From positions 33,068 through 75,705 of the forward strand of contig JADMJT010000030.1 of NCBI GenBank assembly GCA_018781585.1: 42,638 bases of DNA, given 5' to 3'. The notes beneath the pieces were generated by a model. That model had not been told where the DNA came from and made no database searches. It saw nothing but the letters and a program-made list of their open reading frames with translations. A program made the position numbers and the translations under genes. Positions 26,701-42,366 of this stretch are shown here, piece after piece (position 1 is the first letter of the stretch; the number at the start of each line of letters is the position of its first letter). The stretch comes from Burkholderiales bacterium. GTDB lineage: Bacteria > Pseudomonadota > Gammaproteobacteria > Burkholderiales > Thiobacteraceae.

Positions 26701-28635
26701 ATATTCCTGTATTGTCAGGTGGAAGAAGCCCAATTCATTTGGCGAGCGCTCCACGATCAGCCCCAAACCAGACAGAGCATAGTCTGTAATTAATTGGGCC
26801 TGATGCTTGGCCTCATAGTTTGTCAGGCCTGGGCCATTAAGATCGTCAGTCAGGAAGGCGCAAAACGTAGCTTGGCAGTCTGCGATGGTGATTACTCCTG
26901 CTCCACCACTTTCCTGGATATGCAATGCCACGCGCATAAGCATTTCGCGCATGTCTTCTGATCGCGGGGCTGTGTGGTTGGAAAGCCCGGCGGCTTGGGT
27001 GCGCGCTGCAGGATGGTCCGACAAGAGCATTTCAACGATCTTTTCATAGACCTTGATCCGTTGTTCCGGGAGGTGATGGGAATAACGAAAAATATCTATC
27101 AATAGCTGGCAAAAAAGCGGGGTTCGAGCAAGTTCAACTATTCGTGGATTGGCCTGGGTGGCTTTCAGGAATTCCTTGGTGCGCTGATGTAAATTTTGCG
27201 ATCTCTCTAGGCGTCCCTCTGTGGCTGCGATTTCCGGAGCTTCCAGGTATTCGAACCACATATTGGCAAACTGCTCGATTTGCTTTTCGTCAAAAGCTCC
27301 CAGTCGAGTGACGGGCCAAGCGCCATCCGGGCGAACTCGTTCATAGCCCCTCGGCCTGCTTGTGAAAACGGCTGGAGTTGACCGAATTGCCAAGAACGCG
27401 CTAATTCTATCCATGGCTTGTTTTGCTGCATTTATATCCTGCCCCTCATCCAGGCCATCAACTAGAAGGAGCATTTCGCCTTCCCTTACGGCGCGCCGAA
27501 ATAGTGGACGGATATCATCTGCTGCGTTTTGGTGAAGCCAACTGTCGAAATAATCCTCAAGGTTCAGGTTGGGTTGTGCCTGGATGACTGAGCTGAAACC
27601 GCCAAAGGAAATCCAGACAGGCAGCAATTTGCTCCATGGGGTTTGAAATGGGTCATCGCGCTTTGAGAGTAATTGCAGGGCAATGACGCGCAACAAGGTG
27701 CTTTTCCCATATCCAGGTTCCCCGAGCACCACACTCCTGTCATGTCGCGAGAACCACTCGCCTACCGGGATGCGGATTTCTTGGGTCGTGGTTGATTGAA
27801 CACGTGGGCGCCGGGAGTGCTGCATTTCGGTACCGCTGGGATTTTGTTCTCCCTGTCTTGGGATGGGCGAGTCCGTCGGCGACTCGGAAGTTGTTATATT
27901 TCGTGACTCAATTACGGCAGGAGCTATATAACGCTTAAGTAAGGAGGCTGGCCGTTGCGTGCCTAAACGCAAGCCTTGATCATGCCGGAGGAATAGCGTT
28001 GTGTAGACCTCATAAAGTTGAGAGCGTAGCTTTTCCAGCTCAACTCCATCAAGCTTTTCACCGAGAGATTTTGCAGCTTCTTCACCGTTAAATCGGCGGA
28101 CCCACTCCCGAAGAAAAAAGTCATCTACGAGGTCAGGATGGCTTTTGAGTCGCTCAGTTAGTTGCCCACCTTCAGAACCGTCCCAAACGTGAAATTCGAT
28201 ATTCTTAGCCGCCAAACGGGAATGTTGGGCAGCAATTTCATCAACCTGCTCTGTCCTGCTAAGGGCTGATGAGGTGCATAAAACGAAGCTTCTAGCTTTG
28301 TCAGCCCATTTCCCCTTCAGGAATTTGTCGACGGCTTTCTTGATATCTTCTCCTGAAAATTCTTTGACTCGCTTGCACTGGTAACAAGCAAATTCGCTGG
28401 GCGTTTGGTTCCGAGCAGCAAGAATATCCAGTCCGAATTGTGTTTGTCCGGGGATGCCGTAAACCCAGCATTCCGAGATTGCCGCTTCACGATCCACTAG
28501 CCGCTTAATTAGCCGCTCGAAATTTTCCCAAGTTAGTTCACCAAAAGGTAGAGTCTGCGCGCGAGTATCAATCGGTGGAGAAGGGAAGTTCCCATCAGGG
28601 GGGGCATTTAGCCAAGCAGGGGAGTTATTTTGCAC
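23734..28635 (-). CDS. Mrr-like nuclease-NACHT ATPase with helical repeats, putative antiphage sensor
   Basis: This 1633-residue protein has three parts. Residues about 30-170 look like an Mrr/PD-(D/E)xK endonuclease: GLDI with Asp70 and YQCKR with Gln86/Lys88 fit the GxD...QxK core. Residues about 285-700 are a NACHT NTPase: Walker A GEPGYGKST (305-313), Walker B LLLVDGLDE (389-397) and sensor TSRPRG (425-430). The remaining 900 residues look like HEAT/ARM-type helical repeats. This order (effector, NTPase, repeat sensor) matches bacterial NLR-like antiphage proteins such as Avs4 (Mrr-STAND) and bNACHT: sensing of a phage product would assemble the ATPase and activate the nuclease. GTG 28635 is the only usable start before an in-frame stop. 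Codon use is visibly AT-richer than flanking genes. Domains are read from motifs; the defence role is inference. Confidence 0.8.
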   Translation of the reverse strand: MQNNSPAWLNAPPDGNFPSPPIDTRAQTLPFGELTWENFERLIKRLVDREAAISECWVYGIPGQTQFGLDILAARNQTPSEFACYQCKRVKEFSGEDIKKAVDKFLKGKWADKARSFVLCTSSALSRTEQVDEIAAQHSRLAAKNIEFHVWDGSEGGQLTERLKSHPDLVDDFFLREWVRRFNGEEAAKSLGEKLDGVELEKLRSQLYEVYTTLFLRHDQGLRLGTQRPASLLKRYIAPAVIESRNITTSESPTDSPIPRQGEQNPSGTEMQHSRRPRVQSTTTQEIRIPVGEWFSRHDRSVVLGEPGYGKSTLLRVIALQLLSKRDDPFQTPWSKLLPVWISFGGFSSVIQAQPNLNLEDYFDSWLHQNAADDIRPLFRRAVREGEMLLLVDGLDEGQDINAAKQAMDRISAFLAIRSTPAVFTSRPRGYERVRPDGAWPVTRLGAFDEKQIEQFANMWFEYLEAPEIAATEGRLERSQNLHQRTKEFLKATQANPRIVELARTPLFCQLLIDIFRYSHHLPEQRIKVYEKIVEMLLSDHPAARTQAAGLSNHTAPRSEDMREMLMRVALHIQESGGAGVITIADCQATFCAFLTDDLNGPGLTNYEAKHQAQLITDYALSGLGLIVERSPNELGFFHLTIQEYLAAQAMVRKDEEEQLTWLASVWNQPQWHEVILAWFSVRGTDQGKGATQRAIDRLKESAATPWEKIQLLLLRTELAANDLGLSPREARSTIDEAADQVETTPFQKLRQALAGQIAQGLRSPSVANTCENRIANWVPARSVWDRAKLIKALGNWKPFDDLLHILKLALHDEAVSCRRAAAESLARIFASESDLGNELAQKAKNWPDTGVRAAALHGLWKGWPDHYALDELAVNACRSRDADLALTGIAIRISRGLRSEDDRQKIWHMFTNGTVSYELRDTCREVLVQGWGKDEEFKRLALDELCNPYNHAPFDKERLISFLAHSWPGDTEVAHSIAGYFLSFSPSHIRDESFWEAMFTGFRGNPELSSAIRKDLEERRTKYQAIYWGPDAKRAYSVIGDDAAKSELLAAYLTETDSLHKYWIISTLMDVWHNDDTVTTFLSNEFLKPPGEVAFLATWAHSFVPEKEARRSWLLKAARTADGRDISAPVSHLLDEFGDDECLAVVKEALSKNVWYYHKIDFQSRLIAAFPNDHDVQTWIESAFANIDGPSIASIATSHEGNPAIRPKLLMAARPARSDARAEVFRVIREHPIPPETVQRLTASIFAEDSDQIRTSGVLARCIAAQQLPELMEPLLGKLHEELDSSGHYFQKRRRSAFSGFLLLGKYETCIDVLTKGSPSALHWLAEYHEADSLTSRTLFEHWDELHNASQALGKAIEMPWGGLIYNGTASEALVNSSARSQLITYLKIMPLQDRTPESLTLMAELLPGSNELRTCLLEMINDRGSSFHRGNISEAQRIYAEQFGGDSQALNDLGDAWAPSSTDVATPPQPISNFLYALALGWPDTPALQALLKQDEQPKLPIHIALSLCSITGDEMKALACIERMIEATWEWGRALPVQYQQGLRKWAFSPSAEALLQNLIVDPDCSRKITALKLLAISGKLKNESRLEMIGRFNEYLEGAVPVPDGLDVLDGKVTTLAQAIAEEFLIASA

Positions 28636-29230: not shown

Positions 29231-29275
29231 GTAATTTAGTCTGGTATTCAACGGGTAACTTCGTCTAGTATTCAA
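29231..29275 (+). repeat. Tandem 24-bp imperfect direct repeats upstream of the chemosensory operon
   Basis: GTAATTTAGTCTGGTATTCA (from 29231) and GTAACTTCGTCTAGTATTCA (from 29255) match at 17 of 20 positions and are 24 bases apart. They end 58 bases before the first CheW start. They could be operator half-sites for a regulator of the operon or the end of a second, lost insertion sequence. Confidence 0.6.
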
Positions 29276-29333: not shown

Positions 29334-29798
29334 GTGACAACAGCATCGGAGCAGCATCTCGTCGTTATCACCCTGGACGAACAACGCTACGCGCTGCGCC
29401 TAACCGCCGTCGAGCGCATCGCCAGGATGGTGGAAATCACGCCGCTTCCAGCCGCGCCCCCCGCCGTGAGCGGAATGGTCAACGTCCAAGGACGCATCCT
29501 GCCGGTGTATGACTTGCGTCGGCGATTCGGCCTGCCGCAACGGGAAATCAAACTGACCGACCAGTTCATCGTCGCGCGCACGGCGCGACGGCCAATCGCG
29601 CTGGTAGCGGACGCGGTGACCGATGTCGTCGCCTGTGCCGAACCAGACTTGATCGCGGCTGAAAACATCCTGCCCGGCGTCGCGTATATGGAGGGCGTGG
29701 TCAAGCTCAAAGATGGTCTGATCCTTATCCACAGCCTGGATAAATTCCTTTCGCTGGAAGAAGAACAATCCCTGAATCAGGCGCTGGATGCCGCCTGA
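29334..29798 (+). CDS. CheW-type coupling protein (WspB-like)
   Basis: This 154-residue single CheW domain links receptors to the histidine kinase. It shows the alternating beta pattern of CheW with LVVITLDEQRYALRL, GMVNVQGRILPVYDLRRRFGL and the later LIHSLDKFL strand. The start is GTG 29334, five bases after AAGGAG. It is the first gene of the Wsp-like cluster and is followed 7 bases later by the CheR gene. A tandem direct repeat precedes it. The WspB equivalence rests on gene order. Confidence 0.9.
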   Translation: MTTASEQHLVVITLDEQRYALRLTAVERIARMVEITPLPAAPPAVSGMVNVQGRILPVYDLRRRFGLPQREIKLTDQFIVARTARRPIALVADAVTDVVACAEPDLIAAENILPGVAYMEGVVKLKDGLILIHSLDKFLSLEEEQSLNQALDAA

Positions 29799-29805
29799 GA
29801 AAGCC

Positions 29806-31230
29806 ATGCCGCCCACACTTTCACCAACGGGGTTATCCGCCCTAAGCGAATTTCTCGCCACGCGGATAGGCTTGAACTTTCCCCGTGAACGTTGGAGCGA
29901 TCTCGAACGGGGAATCGCCGCCGTCGCGCCCGAGTTTGGTTTTTCAGATGCGGAATCGTGCGCGCGTTGGTTATTGTCCACCCCCCTTACGCATCCCATG
30001 ATCGAAACCCTCGCCAGCCATTTGACCGTGGGGGAAACCTATTTTTTTCGCGAGCCGCGAAGCTTGGAAGTGCTTGAGAATCACATCTTGCCAGCTCTGC
30101 TCGCACGGCATGGCGTGGAACGGCGCTTGCGGATTTGGAGCGCGGGCTGTTGCACGGGCGAGGAACCCTACTCCATCGCCATGCTGCTCGACCGGCTGAT
30201 CCCCGATCAACGGGGGTGGAATATCACGATCCTGGCAACGGACATCAACTCCAAGTTTCTTCGAAAAGCCGCGGAGGGCGTGTATGGCGAATGGTCGTTT
30301 CGCGGCACGCCGGCGTGGCTGCGGGAGCGGCATTTCAAAAAACGCCGAGACGGATGTTTCGAAATTGCTCCGCATCTCAAAAGGAAAGTGACTTTTTCCT
30401 ACCTCAATCTCGCCGACGATGCCTATCCCTCGCTCGCGAATAACACCAACGCGATGGACGTGATTTTCTGCCGCAATGTGCTGATGTACTTCACGCCGGA
30501 GCGGGTGAAAGCGGCGGCGCAGAATTATTACCGCTCGCTGGTCGATGGCGGCTGGCTGATCGTCAGCCCTGCGGAAACCTCGAACGCCCTGTTTGCCCCC
30601 TTCACCGCGGTGGCATTCCCCGGTGTCGTGCTGTACCGGAAAACAGCGGAAGCCGAGCATCGTGCCACCGTGGTCCAGTACCCGTCCCCGGCGCTTGTCT
30701 TACCGCCCGAAGCCTTGACAACACCGCCGGCGCCCATCGTGCCGCCGGAACCCATGGTAGTGGAAACAATGCATGCGGCGCCGATCCATGACGCGCCCTC
30801 CAAGCCGGTTGATCACGCGGCACTCTCTCGCAATGCACGGGAATGCGCCAATCAAGGCCGGCTGGCCGAAGCGACCGGGTGGTGTGAAAAAGCAATCGCT
30901 GCCGACAAGCTAAACCCGGCGCACTATTATCTTCTTGCCACCATCCGGCAGGAGGAAGGGCAGACGAATGAAGCGGTGCAATCGCTGAATCATGCACTCT
31001 ATCTCAATCCGGGTTTCGTGCTCGCTCACTTTGCCCTGGGAAATTTTCGCCTGTCGCAGGGTAGGCACCGTGAAGCGGAGCGACATTTCGGAAACGCCCT
31101 CGCACTGTTGCGTCAATATCCGAGGGGAGAAACGCTTCCTGAATCGGATGGACTGACCGCCGGCCGGCTGGCCGAGATCATCGCATCCGTAATATCGAGC
31201 ATGCCGCAGCCCGCCGCGGCCGGCGCATGA
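29806..31230 (+). CDS. CheR methyltransferase with C-terminal TPRs (WspC-like)
   Basis: This 474-residue enzyme methylates receptor glutamates with S-adenosylmethionine. The N-terminal helical subdomain is followed by HLTVGETYFFREP (near 75), the SAM site IWSAGCCTGEEPYS (110-123), ATDINSKFL (144-152) and FCRNVLMYF. A Pro-rich linker (about 290-340) leads to TPR-like helices (about 350-440), as in WspC. I use ATG 29806, preceded by GAGAAAG; ATG 29788 inside the cheW end is an alternative. luxR follows after 44 bases. Confidence 0.93.
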   Translation: MPPTLSPTGLSALSEFLATRIGLNFPRERWSDLERGIAAVAPEFGFSDAESCARWLLSTPLTHPMIETLASHLTVGETYFFREPRSLEVLENHILPALLARHGVERRLRIWSAGCCTGEEPYSIAMLLDRLIPDQRGWNITILATDINSKFLRKAAEGVYGEWSFRGTPAWLRERHFKKRRDGCFEIAPHLKRKVTFSYLNLADDAYPSLANNTNAMDVIFCRNVLMYFTPERVKAAAQNYYRSLVDGGWLIVSPAETSNALFAPFTAVAFPGVVLYRKTAEAEHRATVVQYPSPALVLPPEALTTPPAPIVPPEPMVVETMHAAPIHDAPSKPVDHAALSRNARECANQGRLAEATGWCEKAIAADKLNPAHYYLLATIRQEEGQTNEAVQSLNHALYLNPGFVLAHFALGNFRLSQGRHREAERHFGNALALLRQYPRGETLPESDGLTAGRLAEIIASVISSMPQPAAAGA

Positions 31231-31274
31231 GATACCTATGTGATGGCGAGCTTAATTCCGAAAAGGGAGACGTG

Positions 31275-32138
31275 ATGAAGTTGCGGCAGTTAGATCTCAC
31301 CCAATCCGAGTTGCAAGATATGCTCGATATCGCACACAACGCGATGGGCGTCAGCTCCGATCAGGAAATGCATAGCCTGCTATTGTGCGTGCGAGCGTTG
31401 GTTCCTTGCGAGAGCATCATCGCTTTTCTGGGCGAAACAAGCGCCCAAGGCAACCTCAAAGGCGTCGCCAAGCTGGTCAATGTAAGCTACTCCGCCGAAT
31501 GGCTGGGGGCTTACCTTGAAAGCGGCTATGCGGCAGTGGATCCCGTGCTGCTCACCCATTTCAGGCAGTTCAAGTCCCAGCTTTGGTCGGAAACTTTCCG
31601 CAGGGCGGCATCGGTTCCCGAACAGGATTTTATCGAGCATGCCAGCAGCTATAACTTGTCCGAGGGGATCACCCTGGGACAGCACAGCAATGCGAGGGCC
31701 TTGGGTAGCCTGTTCTCCTTTGCCGGCGAAGACATGGGCGAGCATCCCAGGCACCGGACTGTGCTTGCCCATCTTGCACCCCACCTGCATGTTGCGTTGA
31801 TGCGCACGGCCTTTTCTCCATCGGATTCACGCTCCCTCCTTTCTGCCCGCGAACGGCAGGTGCTGCAATGGATGATAGCGGGTAAGACCAACTGGGAAGC
31901 CTCGCGCATCCTCGGCATCAGTGAGCGGACGGTAAAATTCCATGTACAGAATATTCTGAGGAAGCTTCAAAGCTCGACGCGCGGCCAGGCCATTGCCCAG
32001 GCATTGGAACAAAGGCTGGTTGCCGGGTCTCTATCCAGTCTAGAAACGTGGATCGCTTCTGTCTGCTCTCGGAGCGGAAGTTTTCCCAATCCAGAATCGC
32101 CGCTACCGACTCTGCGCCAGCTGGCGGAAGTGCTGTGA
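31275..32138 (+). CDS. luxR: LuxR-family quorum-sensing regulator
   Basis: This 287-residue acyl-homoserine-lactone receptor has a ligand domain that keeps the conserved Trp76, Tyr80, Asp89-Pro90 and Trp104 (SAEWLGAYL, AAVDPVL, QLW). The GerE helix-turn-helix is ARERQVLQWMIAGKTNWEAS and on, about residues 190-250. A 40-residue tail goes beyond the usual LuxR end. ATG 31275 follows GGGAG; the frame can be read further upstream but without a ribosome site. It appears to belong to the cheW-cheR transcription unit. Its last 221 bases overlap luxI on the other strand. Confidence 0.92.
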   Translation: MKLRQLDLTQSELQDMLDIAHNAMGVSSDQEMHSLLLCVRALVPCESIIAFLGETSAQGNLKGVAKLVNVSYSAEWLGAYLESGYAAVDPVLLTHFRQFKSQLWSETFRRAASVPEQDFIEHASSYNLSEGITLGQHSNARALGSLFSFAGEDMGEHPRHRTVLAHLAPHLHVALMRTAFSPSDSRSLLSARERQVLQWMIAGKTNWEASRILGISERTVKFHVQNILRKLQSSTRGQAIAQALEQRLVAGSLSSLETWIASVCSRSGSFPNPESPLPTLRQLAEVL

Positions 32139-32652
32139 CCGGCCCGATTGTTTCATAGGGATAGCCGGCAATGACAAGCGCCCGCCAGAATCGTCTTTCG
32201 ACCGCCACATAGATATAGCGTACGCCGTTCTCCAGCGACCACTGGTACATCCCCTTATACATCAGCTTGGAAATGTGCCCTGGGGAGATGCCGTGTTGCC
32301 GTAGGTTGGGGGCCACCGTAAACCGGGTGACCTCGGCGGTATCCCTTTCCTTACGCACCCGATAGCCTGGCGCCAACAGTGGCGCAAACTCGTGCTCCAG
32401 CATGAATCTCCGGCTGGGCGGCAAAAACCGGAATACGCCCAGCAGTTCCTCTGTGGTTGAAAATACCCCCATCGACATTGAGAACGGGTCATGTTCGTCC
32501 GTTTCTAAGCCGTCCGGGCAGGGCGGAACCCATCTTAGGTTTTGACAAAATACTTCATGCCGGAGGCGGGCAGCCTTTAGCTGATCTTCCTTGCCGGCAA
32601 GCGAGCGGATGCAATAAGGGCCTTCATAAAAGCGGATGGTTGCGTAGTGCAT
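31918..32652 (-). CDS. luxI: LuxI-type acyl-homoserine lactone synthase
   Basis: This 244-residue synthase makes the AHL signal from S-adenosylmethionine and an acyl carrier. All LuxI landmarks are present with the right spacing: Arg31, Phe35, Trp41, Glu50, Asp52, Asp55 (RHEVF, LRW, ETDEHD), Arg75 (GVFRFLPP), and Glu107/Arg110 (EVTRF). ATG 32652-32650 follows GGAGGAA. The core ends near residue 195; a 50-residue tail extends into luxR on the opposite strand. A lux box lies about 86 bases upstream of its start. The acyl chain length cannot be read from sequence. Confidence 0.9.
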   Translation of the reverse strand: MHYATIRFYEGPYCIRSLAGKEDQLKAARLRHEVFCQNLRWVPPCPDGLETDEHDPFSMSMGVFSTTEELLGVFRFLPPSRRFMLEHEFAPLLAPGYRVRKERDTAEVTRFTVAPNLRQHGISPGHISKLMYKGMYQWSLENGVRYIYVAVERRFWRALVIAGYPYETIGPVTALPPAGAESVAAILDWENFRSESRQKRSTFLDWIETRQPAFVPMPGQWPGRASSFEASSEYSVHGILPSAH

Positions 32653-32737
32653 TTCTGAGTTCCTCCGGAGGAAACGAATGGATGGGTGAGCCAGGGTGTA
32701 GGGCTCTTTAATCAGGACAGCATTGAAGGAATGGCAC

Positions 32738-32757
32738 ACCTGCCCGAATGGACAGGT
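32738..32757. promoter_or_regulatory. lux box (LuxR-binding site)
   Basis: ACCTGCCCGAATGGACAGGT is a 20-bp palindrome with 7 of 10 paired positions and the invariant CT-N12-AG; it closely resembles known lux/las boxes. It lies upstream of luxI; the minus-strand GATTAA at 32713-32708 is a possible -10, placing the box near -43 to -47. On the plus strand it also lies about 200 bases before the second CheW gene, with a -10-like TTTATA at 32784-32789. Confidence 0.82.
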
Positions 32758-32960
32758 TTTATGTAGAGCGATTTGTGCTTTGATTTATAGGTTCTGGAAT
32801 GGGGCCAAATTTCCGGATTCGGGCCCTGCTTCAATAGAAGGCCGCGGGACTACGTGGGAAGTTTCATTGCTGGAGGAAGGGCACAGCATCGCCAATACAA
32901 TAAGCGAGTCCGTCGGCCATTTATACGATTTTCAATAGGTAGTCACCGACGAGTCTTTGC
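32758..32960. other. Gene-free region before the second CheW gene
   Basis: No credible gene is seen. A 71-codon frame (32723-32938) has no ribosome site and overlaps the lux box. The region may hold a plus-strand promoter for the five-gene receptor-kinase part of the cluster. Confidence 0.4.
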
Positions 32961-33605
32961 ATGCGTACACGTGATCCAACACCACAGAAAAAGCCGAAAG
33001 CCTCCATCGACTGGCGCGAAATCGAGCGGCGCATGGAAGCCCTGCGCGCCGTCATCGAGCACGCCTGGGCGCCGACGCCGGAGGCGGCCAAACGCATACT
33101 AAAAGCCCGGGCACAGGCGCTGGCCCGCGAGCCGGAAGCGGCGGAAGCCGCCGCCGAGCACATCGCAGTTGTGGAATTCACCCTGGCGCACGAGCGCTAC
33201 GCCATCGAATCGCACTGCGTGCGCGAGGTTTACCCCCTGGATAACCTCACGCCGCTGCCGTGCACGCCGACCTTCGTGCTCGGTATCGTCAATGTGCGCG
33301 GCGAGATTTTCTCGGTCATCGACATCAAGAAATTTTTCGACCTGCCGGAAAAAGGGTTGACCGATCTCAACAAGGTGATCGTACTTCAGTCCGGCGACAT
33401 GGCCTTCGGCATACTGGCCGATTCAATTATCGGCGCGCGCCGCCTTCCGATCGTCGACATTCAGCCCTCTCTCCCCACGCTCACCGGCATTCGAGCGGAA
33501 TATCTGCGGGGCGTTACCCCGGAATGTTCAGTCATCCTCGATGCGGAAAAACTCCTGGCCGACGAGAAGATCGTCGTGCGGGAACAAGTGGAAGGATCAG
33601 CGTAA
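32961..33605 (+). CDS. CheW-type protein with N-terminal extension (WspD-like)
   Basis: This 214-residue protein has an Arg/Glu/Ala-rich helical N-terminus (residues 1-70, with RILKARAQALARE). A CheW domain follows (about 72-205: AVVEFTLAHERYAIE, GIVNVRGEIFSVIDIKKFF). Extended CheW proteins of this kind accompany hybrid CheA in Wsp and other alternative chemosensory systems. No good Shine-Dalgarno is visible before ATG 32961. It lies 90 bases before the receptor gene. Confidence 0.88.
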   Translation: MRTRDPTPQKKPKASIDWREIERRMEALRAVIEHAWAPTPEAAKRILKARAQALAREPEAAEAAAEHIAVVEFTLAHERYAIESHCVREVYPLDNLTPLPCTPTFVLGIVNVRGEIFSVIDIKKFFDLPEKGLTDLNKVIVLQSGDMAFGILADSIIGARRLPIVDIQPSLPTLTGIRAEYLRGVTPECSVILDAEKLLADEKIVVREQVEGSA

Positions 33606-33694
33606 GCCCACTCGAATTCGGTAAAAAAACGGGGGCCATGAAATAGTTCCGCTAACCAGCAGCAGCTATCGAAGTTTTACAAGGAGATCAGGCT

Positions 33695-35155
33695 ATGACT
33701 ATCGGCAAAAAAATCATCGGCGGCTACATCGTCGTGCTGGCGCTGCTGGCGCTCGTGATGTTTATCGCCTTCTATTCGTTCGCCAGGATTCAAGCGACCT
33801 ACGACGGCTTCATCGACGTGGATGAACAACTGGTCGAGGGCGCCGGCAAGCTGCGCATCGAGCTGAACGACCAGATCGCCAACTACCGGGGCATTTTGCT
33901 CTATCCCGATCTCCTGAAAAGTTATCTGGAAGAATTACAGACCAACCGGCGCCGCTTCGGCGAGATCGTCGGAACCATGCGCCAGCTCGTTCGCAGCGCC
34001 GAAGGGCGCGGCATGCTGGAGGAGATCGCAGCCTTGCAGGCGAAGAACGAGCAGGCCCAGGATCGGGTCATCGAGCTGGCGCGGAGCGGAAAGCTCGCGG
34101 AGGCGCTGGCGCTGGGGATCAAGGAAGTACGCCCGCTCAACCGCGCCCAGGACGACAAGACAGAGCGCTTCCGCGAGCGGGAACAGAAGCTGATGGCGGA
34201 AGGACGTGCCGAGCTGGCGGCGACGGTCAATCTTCTCACGCTGGTAATATGGGGCACTTCGCTGCTCGCCCTGATCGTCGGCTTGAGCACCGGCTTCTTG
34301 CTCAGCCGCACCATCACCCGGCAACTCCGCGAGAGCATCACCCAGTTATCTTCCTCGTCCAGCGAAATTCTCGCCACCACCACGCAGGTGGCTGCGGGCG
34401 CGGCCGAGACCGCCACAGCGGTGAGCGAGACCACCGCCACCATCGAGGAAGTGAAGCAGACCGCCCAACTCGCGAGCCAGAAGGCGAAGTACGTTTCAGA
34501 AAGCGCGCAAAAGGTAGCACAGGTTTCCCAATCCGGCCGCAAGTCGGTGGACGACACGATCCAAGGCATGCAGCGGATTCAGGAGCAGATGGAATCCATC
34601 GCCGAGAGCATCGTGCGCCTGTCCGAGCAAAGCCAGGCCATCGGCGAAATCATCGCCACCGTCAATGATTTGGCCGAGCAATCGAACGTGCTGGCGGTGA
34701 ATGCCGCCATCGAGGCGGCCCGTGCCGGCGAACAAGGCAAGGGCTTCGCCGTGGTGGCGCAGGAAGTGAAGAGCCTGGCCGAGCAATCTAAGCAGGCCAC
34801 CACCCAGGTGCGCTCAATTCTGGGCGACATTCAGAAAGCCACCAGCGCCGCAGTACTCGCCACCGAGCAGGGCAATAAGGCGGTGGAGGCTGGGGTGAAG
34901 CAGACCGGCGAGACCGGCGAATCGATCCGATTGCTGGCCGAGAGCATCCATGAAGCAGCGCAGGCGGCGACCCAAATCGCGGCCTCAAGCCAGCAGCAGA
35001 TGGTGGGCATGGATCAGGTGGCGCTGGCGATGGAGAACATCAAGCAAGCAAGCATACAGAACGTCGCCGGCACCAAGCAGGCCGAGGTCGCCGCGCAAAA
35101 CTTGCATGAGTTGGGGCACAAACTGGGGGCGATGATCGGAAACAAGGCCGCATGA
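33695..35155 (+). CDS. Methyl-accepting chemotaxis-type receptor (WspA-like)
   Basis: This 486-residue inner-membrane receptor has transmembrane helices at about 8-28 and 180-203. They enclose a four-helix-bundle periplasmic domain (4HB_MCP type). The cytoplasmic hairpin has the conserved tip [20 protein letters not shown] and continues [20 protein letters not shown] canonical HAMP domain is not evident: the chain goes from [11 protein letters not shown] straight into signalling-domain heptads. No C-terminal CheR-tethering pentapeptide is seen. AAGGAG precedes the ATG. It is probably the sensor of the Wsp-like pathway, perhaps of surface contact as in Pseudomonas. Confidence 0.92.
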
Positions 35156-35202
35156 CGCGCTAGGTAATGTCTGGCGCACGATCCTGAAATCGGAACAAAA
35201 TT

Positions 35203-37512
35203 ATGGCGAAACAGAACGACGAATTCCAGAAAAGGCTGCTCGCGACATTTCGGATCGAGGCGGACGAACATCTCAGAGCGATGTCGTCGGGGCTGCTCGA
35301 ACTGGAAAAAACGCCGTCAGGCGATCATCGCGCGAAAATCGTCGAGCAGGTCTTCCGCGAAGCGCACAGCCTGAAAGGCGCCGCGCGGGCGGTGAGTCTC
35401 GCCGAAGTCGAAGCGGTGTGCCAAGCGCTGGAAAGCGTGTTCGCGGAGATGAAGCGCAACCGGCTTGCCGGCTCGCCGGCCTTATTCGACCTCCTGCACC
35501 AAGCGATCGGCGCGCTCGATAGGCTGGTCGATCCAAGTGCCGGGACGCCCTCCCCCCCATCCATGACCGCCATGCTGATACAGCGTCTCGACCATGCGTT
35601 GCAAGCACGGTTACACGAACCGGAACCCGCCGCGAAGACAAGGTTGCCGGAACAGTCGCCCGCTCACGCCGCGGATGCGCCCGCCGCGATGCGCGACATG
35701 CCTATTCCGTCCGCTAACCAGTCCTCCGAGACGATCAGAATCGCCACGACAAAACTCGACGCGGTGATGCGGCAGGTGGAGGAGTTGCTGTCGCCGCGCC
35801 TGGCATCGGCCCAGCGCGCCAAGGAATTGCGCGAGGCCGCCGCCGCGCTGACTGCTTGGAAGAAGGAGCGGGCGCAGATACAGCCCGCGTTGCGGCAGGT
35901 CGAGCAAGCGTTCGCGCGCAACAACAGCGCCAACGCTACCGCGCATGGGCGGCTGGCGTTGCCGAAGCTGCTCGAATACTTGGATGGCGAACAGCTCGCC
36001 ATGAAATCGCTCGATGATCGTCTGGCGCGGTTGAGAAAATCCGCCGATCATGATCAGCGCACGCTGGCCGGCATGACCGACGGCCTGCTGTGCGATGTGC
36101 GGGAAATGCACCTGCTGCCGTTCTCCTCGCTGATCGAAATTTTCCCGCGCTTCACCCGCGAGCTCGCGCGCGATCAGGGCAAGGAAGTGGCGTTGATGAT
36201 ACAAGGCGGCGAGATCGAAATCGACCGGCGGATTCTGGAAGAGATGAAGGATCCGCTGCTTCACATGCTGCGCAACTGCATCGATCACGGCATCGAAACG
36301 CCGGTGTTGCGCGCGGACAAGCATAAGCCGCCGCACGGAACGTGCGCCCTGGCGATTTCGCAGTTGGACAGCGGCAAAGTCGAGATTCTCGTTACCGACG
36401 ACGGGGCCGGCATCGACGCGGCCAAAGTAAAGGCGGCGGCCTGCAAACTCGGCCTCGTTTCCGCCGAGGAGACGGAGCGGCTGGAGGAATCGGCAGCGCT
36501 GGCGCTTATTTTCCAATCCGGCATCTCCACCAGCCCCATCATCACCGATGTTTCCGGACGCGGACTCGGGTTGGCCATCGTGCGCGAAAAAGTCGAGCGA
36601 TTGGGCGGTGCGATTGCGCTCGAATCGACCCCGGATGCCGGCACGTGCTTTAGGATCACGCTGCCGCTGACCTTGGCCACCTTTCGCGGCGTTCTGGTTC
36701 GTGCCGGCGAGCAGCTTTGCGTCATCCCCGCGGGCAGCGTCGAACGCGTGACGAGGGTCGCCCGCAAAGACATCCGCACCGTGGAGAACCGGGAAACGAT
36801 TCCGCTCGACGGACAGGCCGCCTCGCTGGTCTGGTTGACCGATGTGCTGGAAATGCCGCGCAAGCCAGGGGGCAGCGAATCGGCGGAGATGGCGCAGGCC
36901 GTCGTACTGGGGCTGGGCCCGGCGCACGTCGCATTCCGGGTGGACGAGATACTGGGCGAGCAGGAAATTCTGCTCAAGCCGCTCGGCCGCCAACTCGCGC
37001 GCGTGCGCAACGTCGCCGGCGCGTGCGTGCTGGAAACCGGCGACGTTGCGCCAGTGCTGAACGTGGCCGATCTGATGAAGTCGGCCGTGAAGCAGGCGAC
37101 GACGCCGCGCGCGGCCATTGCCGCGCAACTACCCGCGGATGCGGCCAAGCCATCCATCCTGGTCGTGGAGGACTCGATCACCTCGCGCGCGCTGCTCAAG
37201 AACATCCTGGAGTCGGCGGGTTATCGCGTCACCACCGCGGTGGACGGCATCGACGCCTACACCGCGCTCAAGACCGCGACCTTCGACCTAGTCGTCTCTG
37301 ACGTGGAGATGCCGCGCATGGACGGCTTCGATCTCACGGCCAAGGTGCGCGCCGACAAGCAACTCGCCGAGCTGCCGGTGGTGCTGGTCACGGCGCTCGA
37401 ATCGCGCGAGCACCGCGAGCGCGGCATCGATGCCGGCGCCAATGCCTATATCGTGAAAAGCAGTTTCGATCAGAGCAACCTGCTGGAGACCGTTCAGCGT
37501 CTGATCGATTGA
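35203..37512 (+). CDS. Hybrid CheA histidine kinase-response regulator (WspE-like)
   Basis: This 769-residue kinase has domains in order. The Hpt domain with phospho-His55 (REAHSLKGAAR) is followed by a linker with coiled-coil segments, dimerisation helices, and an HATPase domain with N box MLRNCIDHGIE (355-365), VTDDGAGID and GRGLGLAIV (452-460). A CheW-like regulatory domain (about 485-640) precedes a receiver with phospho-Asp700 (VVSDVEMPRMDG). CheA-REC is the architecture of WspE. It should phosphorylate its own receiver, CheB and the output protein's receiver. Only a weak GGAA ribosome site precedes ATG 35203. Confidence 0.95.
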   Translation: MAKQNDEFQKRLLATFRIEADEHLRAMSSGLLELEKTPSGDHRAKIVEQVFREAHSLKGAARAVSLAEVEAVCQALESVFAEMKRNRLAGSPALFDLLHQAIGALDRLVDPSAGTPSPPSMTAMLIQRLDHALQARLHEPEPAAKTRLPEQSPAHAADAPAAMRDMPIPSANQSSETIRIATTKLDAVMRQVEELLSPRLASAQRAKELREAAAALTAWKKERAQIQPALRQVEQAFARNNSANATAHGRLALPKLLEYLDGEQLAMKSLDDRLARLRKSADHDQRTLAGMTDGLLCDVREMHLLPFSSLIEIFPRFTRELARDQGKEVALMIQGGEIEIDRRILEEMKDPLLHMLRNCIDHGIETPVLRADKHKPPHGTCALAISQLDSGKVEILVTDDGAGIDAAKVKAAACKLGLVSAEETERLEESAALALIFQSGISTSPIITDVSGRGLGLAIVREKVERLGGAIALESTPDAGTCFRITLPLTLATFRGVLVRAGEQLCVIPAGSVERVTRVARKDIRTVENRETIPLDGQAASLVWLTDVLEMPRKPGGSESAEMAQAVVLGLGPAHVAFRVDEILGEQEILLKPLGRQLARVRNVAGACVLETGDVAPVLNVADLMKSAVKQATTPRAAIAAQLPADAAKPSILVVEDSITSRALLKNILESAGYRVTTAVDGIDAYTALKTATFDLVVSDVEMPRMDGFDLTAKVRADKQLAELPVVLVTALESREHRERGIDAGANAYIVKSSFDQSNLLETVQRLID

Positions 37513-37594
37513 GATTTATAAATATTTCGGTGCGCAGTGAATCGATAACCGGTCAAATGTTTGGGCAATGATCCATTAAAAGAAAGGCGTTTTC

Positions 37595-38656
37595 TTGATC
37601 AAGGTTCTAGTCGTGGAGGATTCACCGGTGGTACGTGAACTCCTGGTTCATATCCTCAGCTCGGATCCCGACATCCAGGTGGTCGGCACGGCGCACGACG
37701 GTGCGCAAGCGCTCGATGCCGTAGCACGCTATCGCCCCGACGTGATCACGATGGACATCCACATGCCGCATATGAATGGCTTGGAAGCCACACGCCGGAT
37801 CATGGAAACGGATCCGACGCCCATTGTCATCGTGAGCGGAAGCGAGAATCTAGGGGAAGTGGTCACGACCTTCGATGCGATGGAGGCCGGCGCATTGGCC
37901 GTGCTGCCACGGCCGCCCGGCATGGCGCATGCGCAGCACGAAGCGATCGCCCGCGAATTGGTGCAAACGGTGAAACTGATGTCGGAAGTCAAAGTGGTAC
38001 GGCGTTGGCCGCGCGTGCGGCGCGAAGCGGCGCACGCGGCGGGGATGGGGCTTACGCACGAAACGGCGAAAATCCGGGTCGTGGCGATCGGCGCCTCGAC
38101 CGGCGGCCCCCCCGCGCTGCAAACCATCCTGGCGGGGTTGCCGAAGGATTTCCCAGCGCCGGTGTTGATCGTGCAACACATGGCGGCGGGTTTTATCGCA
38201 GGATTCGTCGAATGGCTTGCGCATTCGGCGAATCTGCCCGTTCATCTCGCCGCGAACGGTGAACCCATTCTGCCCGGCCATGCCTATGTGGCGCCCGACG
38301 GATTCCAGATGAAGGTGGCGCGCGGCGGAACAATCGCGCTGACGCGGGACGAGCCCGAAAATGGATTGCGCCCGTCGGTTTCCTATCTGTTTCGCTCGAT
38401 CGCCGAAACCTACGGTTGCGACGCCATCGCCGGCCTGCTTACCGGCATGGGCCGCGACGGCGCGGAGGAATTGCGGCGATTGAAGGAACGCGGGGCGGTG
38501 ACCTTTGCGCAAGACAAGGATAGTTCCGTTGTGCACGGTATGCCAGGCGAGGCGATCAAGCTCGATGCGGCGATGTTCATTCTTCCGCCGGACAAAATCG
38601 CGGCGGTGTTGACCAATATGGCAAATAATAGAAACAAAAAGGAGTTCAGCCAATGA
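37595..38656 (+). CDS. CheB methylesterase response regulator (WspF-like)
   Basis: This 353-residue enzyme removes receptor methyl groups when phosphorylated. The receiver (1-125) has phospho-Asp54 (ITMDIHMPHMNG); the esterase domain has the triad Ser168 (GASTGG), His195 (VQHM) and Asp288 (GMGRDG). The start is TTG 37595 with AAAGG upstream, giving MIKVLVVEDS. Its stop overlaps the next start (ATGA, 38653-38656), so it is coupled to the output protein gene. In Wsp, loss of WspF locks the pathway on; the same adaptation role is inferred here. Confidence 0.95.
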   Translation: MIKVLVVEDSPVVRELLVHILSSDPDIQVVGTAHDGAQALDAVARYRPDVITMDIHMPHMNGLEATRRIMETDPTPIVIVSGSENLGEVVTTFDAMEAGALAVLPRPPGMAHAQHEAIARELVQTVKLMSEVKVVRRWPRVRREAAHAAGMGLTHETAKIRVVAIGASTGGPPALQTILAGLPKDFPAPVLIVQHMAAGFIAGFVEWLAHSANLPVHLAANGEPILPGHAYVAPDGFQMKVARGGTIALTRDEPENGLRPSVSYLFRSIAETYGCDAIAGLLTGMGRDGAEELRRLKERGAVTFAQDKDSSVVHGMPGEAIKLDAAMFILPPDKIAAVLTNMANNRNKKEFSQ

Positions 38657-41600
38657 AAGCAAGAAAAAAAGAAAGTAAGTGCATCGAAATTCTCATCGCC
38701 GAGGATAGTCCGACTCAGGCGGAACAATTACGCTTCCTGCTCGAGGAGCACGGTTACGGCGTTGTCACAGCTGGCAATGGCAAGGAGGCCCTGATGGCCG
38801 CGGTAGCGCACAAACCCACCTTGGTCATTAGCGACATCGTGATGCCTGAGATGAACGGCTACGAACTGTGTAAGGCAATCAAGTCCCACGAAAAATTGAA
38901 GGATGTCCCCGTCATCCTAGTGACCACGCTCTCCGATCCCAGTGATGTGATCAGCGGACTGGCATGCGGCGCCGACAATTTCATCCGCAAACCGTACGAA
39001 GTACGCTATTTGTTGTCGCGCATCGAATATCTGCTGATGAACATCGAACTGCGCAAGAACCAGAAGATGCAGATGGGCGTGGAGATCGACTTGGGCGGCC
39101 AGAAACATTTCATCACCTCCGAACGGCAACAGATTCTGGATCTGCTGATTTCGACGTACGAACAAGCCGTCCAAGTCAACAACGAGTTACAACTGCGGGA
39201 AAAGGAACTGGCGCACTCCAACCAAGTGCTCAATGGGCTGTATCGCATTGCCGATGGGCTGAATCAAGTTTCCACCGAACACCAGGTGGCGGAAACGGCG
39301 CTGGATCGCGCATTGGAACTGCCCGGGATTCAGGCGGGCTGGATATTCCTGCGCGAAGGCAAGTCCGGCTGCAAGCTCGCCGCCGCGCGCAACCTGCCGC
39401 CGGCGCTGGAACAGAAAGACGCGTTCGATGGGGAATGTCTGTGCCGCCGCAAGCTGGCTGCCGGCGATCTCGATTCGGCGACGAATATCCTCGAATGCGA
39501 ACGGCTCGCCACTGCGACGGGCGACACGAGCGGGCTGCGCTGCCACGCCAGCGTGCCGCTGTGGATCGGCGACCGCATGCTGGGCCTGATGAATCTGGTC
39601 GGGACGGGACAAGGACTGTTCGACGAAGAAGAACTGAAGGTGCTGTACGGCGTCGGCAATCAGGTAGCGGTGGCGCTGGAGCGGGCCAGGCTGTATGAAC
39701 GGATGGAACGATTGGTTGAGGAACGGACCGCCATCCTCGCGGCCGAGGTGGCGCAGCGCAAACACATCCAGGAAGAACAGGCGCGGCTCGTCGCCATCAT
39801 TGAAGCGACCCCCGACTTTATCGCTACCAGCGACCTCAAAGGCCACGTGCGCTACATCAATCAAGCGGGCCTGCGCTTGCTCGGATTTAGGCCCAATCAG
39901 GACCTCTCTGCACTGCGCATCGACGCAGGGTATGCACAGTGGGCGCTAAAACGGGTGCGCGAGCAGGGAATACCCTATGCGCTCAAGTATGGCGTGTGGA
40001 GCGGCGAGACCGCGTTTGCGCAATCGGATGGCCGGGAAATTCCCTTGTCGCAAGTCATTATCGCGCACCGCGGGGCTGGCGGAGCGGCCGAGTACCTATC
40101 GACCATCGCTCGCGACATTACACCCAGCAAGCGCGCCGAGGAGGCGCTGCGCGCGAGCGAAGCGCGTCTGCGCACCATCATCGAAGCGGATCCCGAGTGC
40201 GTGAAGATCGTGAACGCCGACCGGCGGCTGGTGCAAATGAACGCCGCAGGGCTCGCCATGATCGAAGCCGACAGCCTTGATAAGGTGCAGGGCAGCCTAA
40301 CAGAGGAACTGGTGGTGCCGGCGCAGCGCGAGTCCTACCGGGTGTTCGTCGACAGCATATTGAGCGGAAACCGTGGAGCCATCGAGTTCGAAATCATCGG
40401 GCTCAAAGGCGGGCGCCGCTGGCTCGACATCCACGCCGTGCCGCTGCCCAGCCAGAACGGCGGTCGCTCGCAGATGCTTGCCATCGCGCGCGATGTCACG
40501 CTACGCAAGGAGCAGGAAGCGCGGATCGTGCGCCTCAATCGGATTTACAGTGTGCTCAGCGGCATCAACACCACGATCGTGCGCGTGCGTGAGCCGCAGG
40601 AACTGTTCGAGACGGCGTGCCGCATCGCGGTGGAACACGGCGGTTTTACCTTCGCGTGGATCGGTATGCTCGACGCGGAAACGCGCAAGCTCGTGCCCTT
40701 GGCCAGAGCAGGCTGCGACGACGGCTATTTGTCGCAAATCAATTTATCCGCCGTGGAAGATGATCCCGGAAACTGCCGGCTGACGGCGGAGGCGATAATC
40801 CAGGTGAAGCCCGTCATCTGCAACGACATCGCTACGGACGAACGCATGGCGGCATGGCGCGACGAAGCCTTAAGCCGCGGTTATCGTTCTGCGGTTCTAT
40901 TCCCGCTCATACTGGAAGGACGGGCGATTGGCGTATTCGTGCTCTACGCACCGGAAGCGAATGTTTTCGACGACGAGGAAATGGCGCTGCTGACCGAGAT
41001 GGCCGGCGATATTTCCTTTGCCCTGGATCACCTCAAGAAAGAGGAGCGTCTCAATTATCTGGCTTACTTCGACGCCATTACCGACCTGCCGAACCGCGCG
41101 CTATTCCTGGATCGGGTCGAACAACGGATCAGTTCCGCACACCGCGATCAGGCGGTGTTTTCCGTCATCATGCTCGACCTCGAACGGTTCGGCAGCATCA
41201 ACGAATCGCTCGGCCGCCAAGCGGGAGACAGTCTATTGCGCCAGCTCGCGCAACGGCTGAAACAGGGGCTCAGCAAAACGGATATTCTGGCCCGGCTTTC
41301 AGCTGACTATTTCGGCATTGCCACTCGGCATGACGATAAAAGCACAAACATCGCTTATGTCTTGGAAAAGATTTTGTCCGAGATTCAGAATCAGCCGTTC
41401 CTGATCGACGGGCAGGAGCTGCGTATTTCGGCCAGGGCAGGGGTATCGTGTTATCCCACTGACGGCCAGGACACCGAGACCCTGTTACGCAACGCCGAGG
41501 CGGCGCTGAAAAAGACCAAGCTTTCCGGCGACAAATATCTGTTCTACACGCCCGAATTCAATGCGCGGGTCGCCGAAACGCTGAAGCTCGAAAACAAGCT

Positions 41601-42366
41601 GCGTCGGGCGTTGGAACAGGAACAGTTAGTGCTGCATTACCAACCAAAAATCGAACTTAAGAGCGGACAGATCAGTGGGCTGGAGGCGCTGATCCGTTGG
41701 AACGACCCCGAAACCGGTCTGGTACCGCCGCTGAAATTCATTCCCCTGCTCGAAGAAACTGGGATGATTCTCGATGCGGGCCGTTGGGCATTAGCGAAGG
41801 CGGTATCGGATTCCCGTACATGGCAAGCGAATGGTCTCCAATCCCCGAGGATTGCCGTCAATGTTTCGCCGATTCAGCTACGACAGAAAGATTTCGTCAG
41901 CATGGTAGCGCGTGTGATAAATGGCGGCGAAAACGCGGCGGTCAAGCTGGAGCTCGAGATTACCGAGAGCCTCATCATGCAAGATATAGGGGCCAATATC
42001 CAAAAGCTCCGGGGCATTCGAGAGATGGGCATCGAGGTCGCGATCGACGATTTCGGCACCGGCTACTCCTCGCTCAGCTATATCGCCAAGCTGCCTGTCA
42101 ACGTCTTGAAGATCGACCGGGCGTTCATCATCAACATGGTGAACAACGCCGATGATCTAAGCATCGTCTCCACCATCATTTCTCTGGCGCATTCCCTGAA
42201 TCTGCGGGTGATTGCAGAAGGGGTGGAGACCGAGGAACAGGCGAATCTGCTGCGGCTGCTCAAGTGCAATGAGATTCAGGGATACTTGTTCAGCCCCGCG
42301 GTTCCGGCGGAGGAAATCGAGGTTTTCCTGCGAGAGAAAAAAGCACTGGGAAAGCAACCGGGATAA
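38653..42366 (+). CDS. REC-GAF-PAS-PAS-GAF protein with degenerate GGDEF and intact EAL domain
   Basis: This 1237-residue output regulator has a receiver at 11-130 (phospho-Asp61, VISDIVMPEMNG), then coiled coil, GAF (about 195-345), a second coiled coil, PAS (about 375-495), PAS (about 500-625) and GAF (about 635-790). The GGDEF-like domain (about 800-965) has its signature degraded to SADYF (883-887), and LDLERF in place of the metal-binding strand. The EAL domain (about 975-1230) keeps EAL (1011-1013), NVSPIQL, EITES, DDFGTGYSS, KIDRAF, AEGVET and QGYLFSPA. It should therefore hydrolyse c-di-GMP rather than make it. It occupies the position of WspR and is coupled to CheB by a four-base overlap. 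Confidence 0.92.
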   Translation: MKARKKESKCIEILIAEDSPTQAEQLRFLLEEHGYGVVTAGNGKEALMAAVAHKPTLVISDIVMPEMNGYELCKAIKSHEKLKDVPVILVTTLSDPSDVISGLACGADNFIRKPYEVRYLLSRIEYLLMNIELRKNQKMQMGVEIDLGGQKHFITSERQQILDLLISTYEQAVQVNNELQLREKELAHSNQVLNGLYRIADGLNQVSTEHQVAETALDRALELPGIQAGWIFLREGKSGCKLAAARNLPPALEQKDAFDGECLCRRKLAAGDLDSATNILECERLATATGDTSGLRCHASVPLWIGDRMLGLMNLVGTGQGLFDEEELKVLYGVGNQVAVALERARLYERMERLVEERTAILAAEVAQRKHIQEEQARLVAIIEATPDFIATSDLKGHVRYINQAGLRLLGFRPNQDLSALRIDAGYAQWALKRVREQGIPYALKYGVWSGETAFAQSDGREIPLSQVIIAHRGAGGAAEYLSTIARDITPSKRAEEALRASEARLRTIIEADPECVKIVNADRRLVQMNAAGLAMIEADSLDKVQGSLTEELVVPAQRESYRVFVDSILSGNRGAIEFEIIGLKGGRRWLDIHAVPLPSQNGGRSQMLAIARDVTLRKEQEARIVRLNRIYSVLSGINTTIVRVREPQELFETACRIAVEHGGFTFAWIGMLDAETRKLVPLARAGCDDGYLSQINLSAVEDDPGNCRLTAEAIIQVKPVICNDIATDERMAAWRDEALSRGYRSAVLFPLILEGRAIGVFVLYAPEANVFDDEEMALLTEMAGDISFALDHLKKEERLNYLAYFDAITDLPNRALFLDRVEQRISSAHRDQAVFSVIMLDLERFGSINESLGRQAGDSLLRQLAQRLKQGLSKTDILARLSADYFGIATRHDDKSTNIAYVLEKILSEIQNQPFLIDGQELRISARAGVSCYPTDGQDTETLLRNAEAALKKTKLSGDKYLFYTPEFNARVAETLKLENKLRRALEQEQLVLHYQPKIELKSGQISGLEALIRWNDPETGLVPPLKFIPLLEETGMILDAGRWALAKAVSDSRTWQANGLQSPRIAVNVSPIQLRQKDFVSMVARVINGGENAAVKLELEITESLIMQDIGANIQKLRGIREMGIEVAIDDFGTGYSSLSYIAKLPVNVLKIDRAFIINMVNNADDLSIVSTIISLAHSLNLRVIAEGVETEEQANLLRLLKCNEIQGYLFSPAVPAEEIEVFLREKKALGKQPG

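Follow-up and report, generated by a model that had tools for sequence, protein, structure and literature searches.

Why does an N-acyl homoserine lactone (AHL) quorum-sensing pair lie in the middle of a chemosensory operon, and are the two systems functionally connected? This question is raised by a 42,638-nt stretch of DNA (the window; G000:C101:33068-75705, contig JADMJT010000030.1 of assembly GCA_018781585.1) from a Burkholderiales bacterium of the Thiobacteraceae with an assembled genome of 2.84 Mb in 134 contigs. A luxR/luxI pair is located between the cheR-TPR gene and the extended cheW gene (cheW2) of a Wsp-like chemosensory cluster, as we confirmed here. A first-pass annotation made from the sequence had proposed this gene order with a complete AHL pair enclosed in it, and Pfam searches with the window proteins back every gene it named; luxR also reads in the same direction as cheR and close to it, as had been noted, both genes being on the + strand and 44 bp apart. 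The window ends with its contig, so the output gene is the last readable gene of the cluster and genes beyond it are unseen. We propose, with a probability of roughly 0.55, that a CviR/CviI-like cassette was transferred into a Wsp-like operon, where AHL-bound LuxR would activate luxI and the receptor-kinase-output unit.

The arrangement recurs outside the window. A scan of 84,980 species genomes for LuxI, which detects close relatives only, returned two, with 84% and 81% identity, in the metagenome-assembled genomes (MAGs) SKS4.bin47 (G054) and FK4.bin2 (G399). Both carry cheW1-cheR-luxR-luxI(antisense)-cheW2-mcp-cheA plus cheB, and the neighbourhood search suggested by the first-pass annotation thus found the same luxRI insertion conserved in relatives. 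As the two MAGs share the arrangement at 75-84% luxR/luxI identity, an assembly chimera could be ruled out. In all three genomes luxR and luxI are convergent, with luxI overlapping the end of luxR by the same 221 bp, and the cheR-to-luxR spacing is 12 bp in G054 and 36 bp in G399. The G054 cluster contains a second receptor, where the window has one, and two GGDEF genes between cheA and cheB (one in G399).

To place these three clusters among their relatives we used an order search, which found an extended CheW at E<=1e-20 in 33 of 399 genomes, and annotated 34 clusters by script, namely all 33 loci of that search (window, G007 and 31 others) and G399. The luxRI pair lies between cheR and cheW2 in three of the 34 clusters and is missing at that junction in the remaining 31, so that it was added to an operon of greater age and is no constant component of the system. 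Likewise, blastn with the luxRI region of the window gave a match in 2 of 33 relative loci (G054 and G399) and no luxRI remnant in the other 31. LuxI-like matches of any kind (E<=1e-3, many of them weak) occur in 16 of the 33 extended-CheW genomes, adjoining the cluster in three (G000, the genome of the window, G054 and G139) and lying elsewhere in 13. In G139 (L126/L177) the luxR-luxI genes belong to another lineage and are placed in tandem directly before cheW1. LuxI matches at E<=1e-10 were found in 0 of 18 genomes of the family of G230 and in 1 of 22 of the family of G151, there with 27% identity and hence no close LuxI, and among 150 genomes of the family of G399 none but G399 itself has a close LuxI.

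Further elements were seen at or near these positions. Other inserts occupy the same cheR-cheW2 junction in three further clusters (L117, L120, L145), by eye inverted-repeat elements in two of them (G129, G151) and what looks like a ParA-type gene in the third (G316). G007 carries an extra receptor gene (L065 9401-11080) between cheW2 and the receptor that both clusters have in common; the corresponding interval of the window (33605-33695) lacks it. In G139 the palindrome GTTGGGCATTTATGCCCAAC occurs three times between luxR and luxI (L177 6946-7086).

The history of the cassette was addressed with a che-core tree built from CheW1, CheR (1-285) and CheW2 (20-214) of every cluster except G392 (33 of 34). 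The window pairs with G007, a congener that has the cluster without luxRI, and G399 nests with the luxRI-less G151/G230/G201, each with a support of 100/100. Consequently, the three luxRI carriers do not form a clade, and the starred branches force three label changes on the tree, which could correspond to one gain and two losses; the warnings for this tree concern a long branch (G316) and odd composition in eight rows, none of them a luxRI carrier. Among the three carriers the synonymous distance (dS) of luxR, taken over its first 210 codons and so clear of the overlap, is 0.50-0.58. For luxI, taken over the whole gene and thus partly lowered by the overlap, it is 0.31-0.35, as compared to 0.70-1.57 for cheR, cheW2, cheA and cheB, which shows that luxRI has a more recent common ancestor than its surroundings.

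Nucleotide identity between window and G007 is 90-99% from position 29260 to ~30700 and drops to 69-83% over the remaining cheR. In cheW2 the first 45 nt are 49% identical (71% to G054), followed by 89-100% and, in the final 15 nt, 80%; merely 17 nt separate cheR from cheW2 in G007. Either of the two genomes may have changed at this tract. A cheR-tail tree, aimed at its source, pointed to no donor, and in it the tail of G399 stays with its luxRI-less kin. Since the carriers are not a clade, luxRI is younger by dS and G007 lacks it, a luxRI cassette has probably entered operons that were already there, always at this junction. Carriage by a plasmid or phage is not backed by our searches: plasmids gave no LuxR match at E<=1e-20, LuxI matches in 45 records, all with <60% identity (ten listed at 33-34%, six of them annotated traI), and CheA at E<=1e-100 in one record (43% identity), and viral contigs gave no LuxI relative with patterns that detect close relatives only.

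What kind of pair is this? The best relatives of LuxR in the PDB are CviR proteins (3qp5, E 6e-46), followed by LasR (2e-18), and the alignment with CviR spans 238 residues, including an identical helix-turn-helix (HTH) stretch, ISERTVKFHV, and retained residues W, Y, D and W. LuxI, assigned by blastp, Pfam and genome searches, matches solved synthases weakly (EsaI, 3e-5) and keeps R, F, W and E.D..D when aligned with EsaI and E..R when aligned with the 6wn0 synthase. We take these residues of LuxI and LuxR to be involved in catalysis and ligand contact. The PF00765 synthase and the Autoind_bind/GerE regulator are adjacent and each scores above its Pfam cut-off, as is required of an AHL pair. 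The preferred start of luxI is the ATG at 32652, which is preceded by GGAGG, and the GTG of the long open reading frame (ORF) is not favoured. The genome of the window yields two LuxI matches, this luxI and a second, weak match with 28% identity (E 1e-4). Ratios of nonsynonymous to synonymous substitution rates (dN/dS) of 0.22-0.26 for luxR (first 210 codons) and 0.27-0.32 for luxI show that both genes are under purifying selection. The sequence of LuxR, the overlap of the convergent genes and the operator mark the pair as CviR/CviI-like.

The first-pass annotation had placed a lux box before luxI and upstream of the receptor-kinase half, and one is indeed present at 32738-32757. A CTGNCCN4GGNCAG box lies upstream of the synthase gene in all three carriers, the 20-bp boxes being ACCTGTCCATTCGGGCAGGT in the window (luxI strand), ACCTGTCCTTTCGGACAGGT in G054 and ACCTGTCCGAACGGACAGGT in G399. 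From the box core to the luxI ATG there are 88 bp in the window, 93 bp in G054 and 83 bp in G399, and to the cheW2 ATG 206, 352 and 220 bp, respectively. The gaps around the box have otherwise diverged (mean column identity of 62% in the three-genome alignment), and in window and G399 conserved bases, by eye, run on from the box towards cheW2. The gap of G054 (L063 9683-9846) also contains an inverted-repeat element resembling a miniature inverted-repeat transposable element (MITE), AGGAGCCTGTCGGACTT ... AAGTCCGACAGGCTCCT.

We then searched whole genomes with a strict pattern, CCTGYCCN4GGRCAGG, which was written after the boxes had been seen, so that the exact match is built in and its uniqueness is not. 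Exact matches occur once each in G000, G054 and G399, always in the luxI-cheW2 gap, and nowhere in the whole genomes of G007 or G139. When up to one mismatch is allowed, the genome of the window has one site, this box with 0 mismatches, and one for the reversed control pattern; the counts (control in brackets) are 1 (1) in G000, 1 (0) in G007, 10 (5) in G054, 5 (5) in G139 and 8 (2) in G399. With the looser CviR consensus CTGNCCN4GGNCAG, exact sites number 3 (1) in G000, 2 (0) in G007, 11 (4) in G054, 4 (5) in G139, 33 (7) in G022, 9 (1) in G082 and 3 (4) in G399. The other two sites of G000 are both inside ORFs; of the other two in G399, one is inside an ORF and the second lies between ORFs. 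Because looser-pattern counts are near background in some genomes, we put the weight on the shared place and the conservation of the box. The sole exact strict box of each carrier lies in the luxI-cheW2 gap, which makes luxI and the cheW2-mcp-cheA-cheB-output half its natural candidate targets.

The output protein comprises REC, two GAF, two PAS, GGDEF and EAL domains according to Pfam, and its best solved relative is the GGDEF-EAL 'Motility regulator' 4rnh (also 4rnf). In the alignment with 4rnh GGDEF is replaced by SADYF, while EALIRW, ELEITE, DDFGTG, KID and AEGVE are kept. The protein is thus probably a cyclic di-GMP (c-di-GMP) phosphodiesterase with a degenerate GGDEF and an intact EAL domain, and the same motifs rule out a WspR-type output, i.e. 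a REC-GGDEF cyclase. Output homologues of near luxRI-less clusters (L116, L121, L123, L124, L125) have no intact RxGGDEF by pattern and keep EAL; in more remote clusters the homologues (L138, L139, L140, L142, L143) have both GGDEF and EAL. The extra genes of G399 and G054 encode HAMP-GGDEF or PAS-GGDEF proteins, and as outputs and extra genes differ between carriers, the direction in which c-di-GMP is driven probably varies from one carrier to another, too. Homologues of the window output were also met in another setting: in the family of G399 (L147-L149, L151-L156) a different luxI lineage, mostly with luxR, lies beside one at nine of the ten other LuxI loci returned (39-40% identity, one 36%). 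Two of these homologues are PAS-GGDEF proteins by Pfam, making this a second AHL/c-di-GMP gene neighbourhood.

Our model is as follows. A cassette of luxR, convergent luxI and one operator would have entered a Wsp-like operon at the cheR-cheW2 junction, probably through recombination via flanking che sequence. The operon would thereby have been split into cheW1-cheR-luxR and cheW2-mcp-cheA-cheB-output, with the second unit now starting beside the operator. AHL-bound LuxR would activate luxI, resulting in positive feedback, and also the receptor-kinase-output unit, and the array would be built, or its stoichiometry set, at high cell density. Once stimulated, the array would phosphorylate the EAL phosphodiesterase, lowering c-di-GMP. 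Insertion, recurrence, purifying selection on luxR and luxI and a conserved operator can be read from the genomes compared; AHL control of the che genes is plausible, and cell density may control part of the Wsp-like array. More tentatively, the cassette could be a mobile, self-contained quorum switch whose sole strong genomic operator is the promoter of the operon it invaded, its entire AHL regulon then being one chemosensory array with a density-controlled receptor-kinase-output half.

Several observations weigh against control of the che genes. The looser-consensus counts are near or at control level in G000 (3 versus 1) and G399 (3 versus 4), and G022 and G082, whose pairs come next in closeness, have none of the exact CviR-consensus sites listed near luxI. 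A consensus sigma-70 promoter was not found in the luxI-cheW2 gap (32653-32960), and a search for terminators gave 0 (2.1 in shuffles), so that transcription from the old promoter may still reach the downstream half. Output is not constant either, the gene after cheB in G399 encoding a hybrid histidine kinase and no EAL protein. Finally, the box is nearer to luxI than to cheW2 in all three genomes and is parted from cheW2 by the inverted-repeat element in G054, suggesting that it may serve luxI alone. The cassette would then be a passenger in a che operon that is merely a tolerated insertion site, with other, weaker targets elsewhere; the inserts that G129, G151 and G316 carry at this position are consistent with this, as are weak boxes proposed to be functional in Chromobacterium, where CsuR sites are described as 56-69% similar to the ideal, so that weak sites can matter (PMC12114271, PMC10847564). 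However, the window LuxI and both close relatives found are all in this kind of cluster, none of the three genomes has a further exact strict box, and conserved bases, by eye, extend on the cheW2 side of the box, and we regard such a passenger as unlikely, albeit a serious alternative.

The coupling might also be mainly negative, with AHL-induced antisense transcription of luxI lowering luxR and cheR and thus altering receptor methylation at high density. The 221-bp convergent overlap in all three genomes and the lack of a detectable terminator fit such interference, and negative regulation through the overlap is proposed for csuR/csuI. Yet Chromobacterium has a shorter overlap although its pair sits apart from its targets, so the overlap need not concern che, and we consider interference improbable. 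An old association, in which luxRI was present in the ancestor of the clusters and lost in most lineages, would explain why three separate lineages agree in junction, orientation, overlap and box, and one gain with several losses is compatible with the tree counts. In each of the three pairs, however, luxRI has lower synonymous distances than the che genes, blastn remnants are lacking in 31 of 33 relative loci and the comparison with G007 shows a replaced tract instead of a simple deletion, which renders repeated loss very improbable. Some doubt also attaches to the signal itself. LuxI matches the PEP-CTERM acyltransferase model TIGR03694 of NCBIfam with 55 bits (cut-off 112) and the best NCBIfam match of LuxR is EpsA with 84 bits (cut-off 170), both below cut-off; LuxI might then be a related acyltransferase (e.g. 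PEP-CTERM/exosortase-associated) whose partner is a regulator of the EpsA kind, and the cells would make no quorum signal. The TraI synthase models, also below their cut-offs of 250 and 292, score higher (61 and 60 bits), the best of them leading TIGR03694 by 61 to 55 bits in the window, 65 to 56 in G054 and 63 to 46 in G399, and the LuxI proteins of G054, G399, G022 and G082 are alike in that the top TraI model always leads. With PF00765 and Autoind_bind above their cut-offs and synthase and pocket residues retained, an acyltransferase without a signal is hardly credible. Transfer of a CviR/CviI-like cassette with AHL control of luxI and the receptor-kinase-output unit therefore remains our preferred reading.

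Table 1. Features of the chemosensory cluster and its luxRI insertion (window positions)
Feature	Position	Strand	Basis
cheW1 (WspB position)	29334..29798	+	Pfam CheW E 4.8e-28; 96% identity in G007
cheR-TPR (WspC position)	29788..31230	+	Pfam CheR E 4.2e-49 + TPR
luxR, CviR-like AHL receptor/regulator	31275..32138	+	Autoind_bind 2.5e-20 + GerE 1.6e-20
luxI, probable AHL synthase	31918..32652	-	PF00765 E 3e-14, 53 bits vs cut-off 24
lux/CviR box ACCTGCCCGAATGGACAGGT	32738..32757, core 32740-32755	.	Sole exact CCTGYCCN4GGRCAGG in genome
luxI-cheW2 intergenic region, presumed divergent promoters	32653..32960	.	Three-genome alignment
cheW2, N-terminal extension (WspD position)	32961..33605	+	Pfam CheW E 4.1e-30
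4HB methyl-accepting receptor (WspA position)	33695..35155	+	MCPsignal, 4HB_MCP_1
cheA-REC hybrid kinase (WspE position)	35203..37512	+	Hpt, HATPase_c, CheW, Response_reg
cheB (WspF position)	37595..38656	+	CheB_methylest, Response_reg
Output REC-GAF-PAS-PAS-GAF-GGDEF(SADYF)-EAL, probable c-di-GMP phosphodiesterase	38653..42366	+	Pfam domains; 4rnh/4rnf alignment
Tract unlike G007: cheR end, luxRI, box, first ~45 nt of cheW2	30700..33005, borders approximate	+	G007 identity profile

Outside the cluster the window encodes a 1633-aa protein (23734-28635, - strand) with Mrr-type nuclease, NACHT and HEAT domains and merely marginal PADLOC matches; we take this build to be that of a STAND-type phage-defence protein.

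Links between quorum sensing and chemosensory c-di-GMP pathways usually run through distant regulation, whereas here one cis-acting cassette would tie the two together. The arrangement is real and recurrent and has probably spread horizontally, and related clusters that carry or lack the cassette, some even congeneric, offer a natural before-and-after pair for density wiring and its evolution. The components are each of a known kind and their combination appears undescribed in the searchable literature: in agreement with the first-pass annotation, which knew of no system with this layout, our searches of open-licence PMC literature showed no report of AHL genes lying within a Wsp or other chemosensory cluster, and term searches of two survey main texts found no LuxR, LuxI or quorum in the 2021 Wsp survey (PMC8552884) and no LuxR, LuxI, quorum or homoserine in the CheR-TPR survey (PMC3447774).

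Like the Wsp systems (wspABCDEF with wspR in Pseudomonas or wspH in Burkholderia) the cluster has two CheW proteins, a CheR-TPR, one 4HB receptor, a CheA-REC, a CheB and a c-di-GMP-type output. It differs in that the receptor gene stands behind the second cheW and not at the head, as judged by gene order, the output is an EAL protein with a degenerate GGDEF, no WspR (REC-GGDEF) or WspH being encoded among the readable genes up to the contig end, and luxRI is inserted. The Wsp survey defines these systems by wspA-wspF synteny and at least 30% identity to reference operons, together with wspR or wspH (PMC8552884). Of the wspBCDAEF-R designation in the first-pass annotation the component order holds, but neither WspR nor, by that definition, wspA-F synteny does, and because of the B-C-D-A-E-F order and the non-WspR output 'Wsp-like pathway' is the safer name. 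The combination of CheR-TPR and a multidomain response regulator in one cluster is shared with the alternative cellular function (ACF) pathways, whose REC regulators carry GAF, PAS, GGDEF or EAL domains (PMC3447774). An AHL pair directly beside the same kind of cluster is also found in G139, yet that luxRI is of another lineage (35% and 28% identity), is arranged in tandem and lies upstream of cheW1, and none of the 4 exact CviR-consensus sites of this genome is on that contig. In LuxR sequence including the HTH, convergent overlap and CTGNCCN4GGNCAG box the pair resembles CviI/CviR of C. violaceum and CsuI/CsuR of C. subtsugae. The Chromobacterium papers (PMC10847564, PMC12114271) place a 16-bp box, CTGNCCNNNNGGNCAG, upstream of the synthase gene; they describe cviI/cviR and csuI/csuR as convergent genes that overlap by 73-80 bp, as compared to 221 bp here, and whereas csuI/csuR is described there as lying apart from the genes it controls, the pair reported here is located inside a chemosensory cluster.

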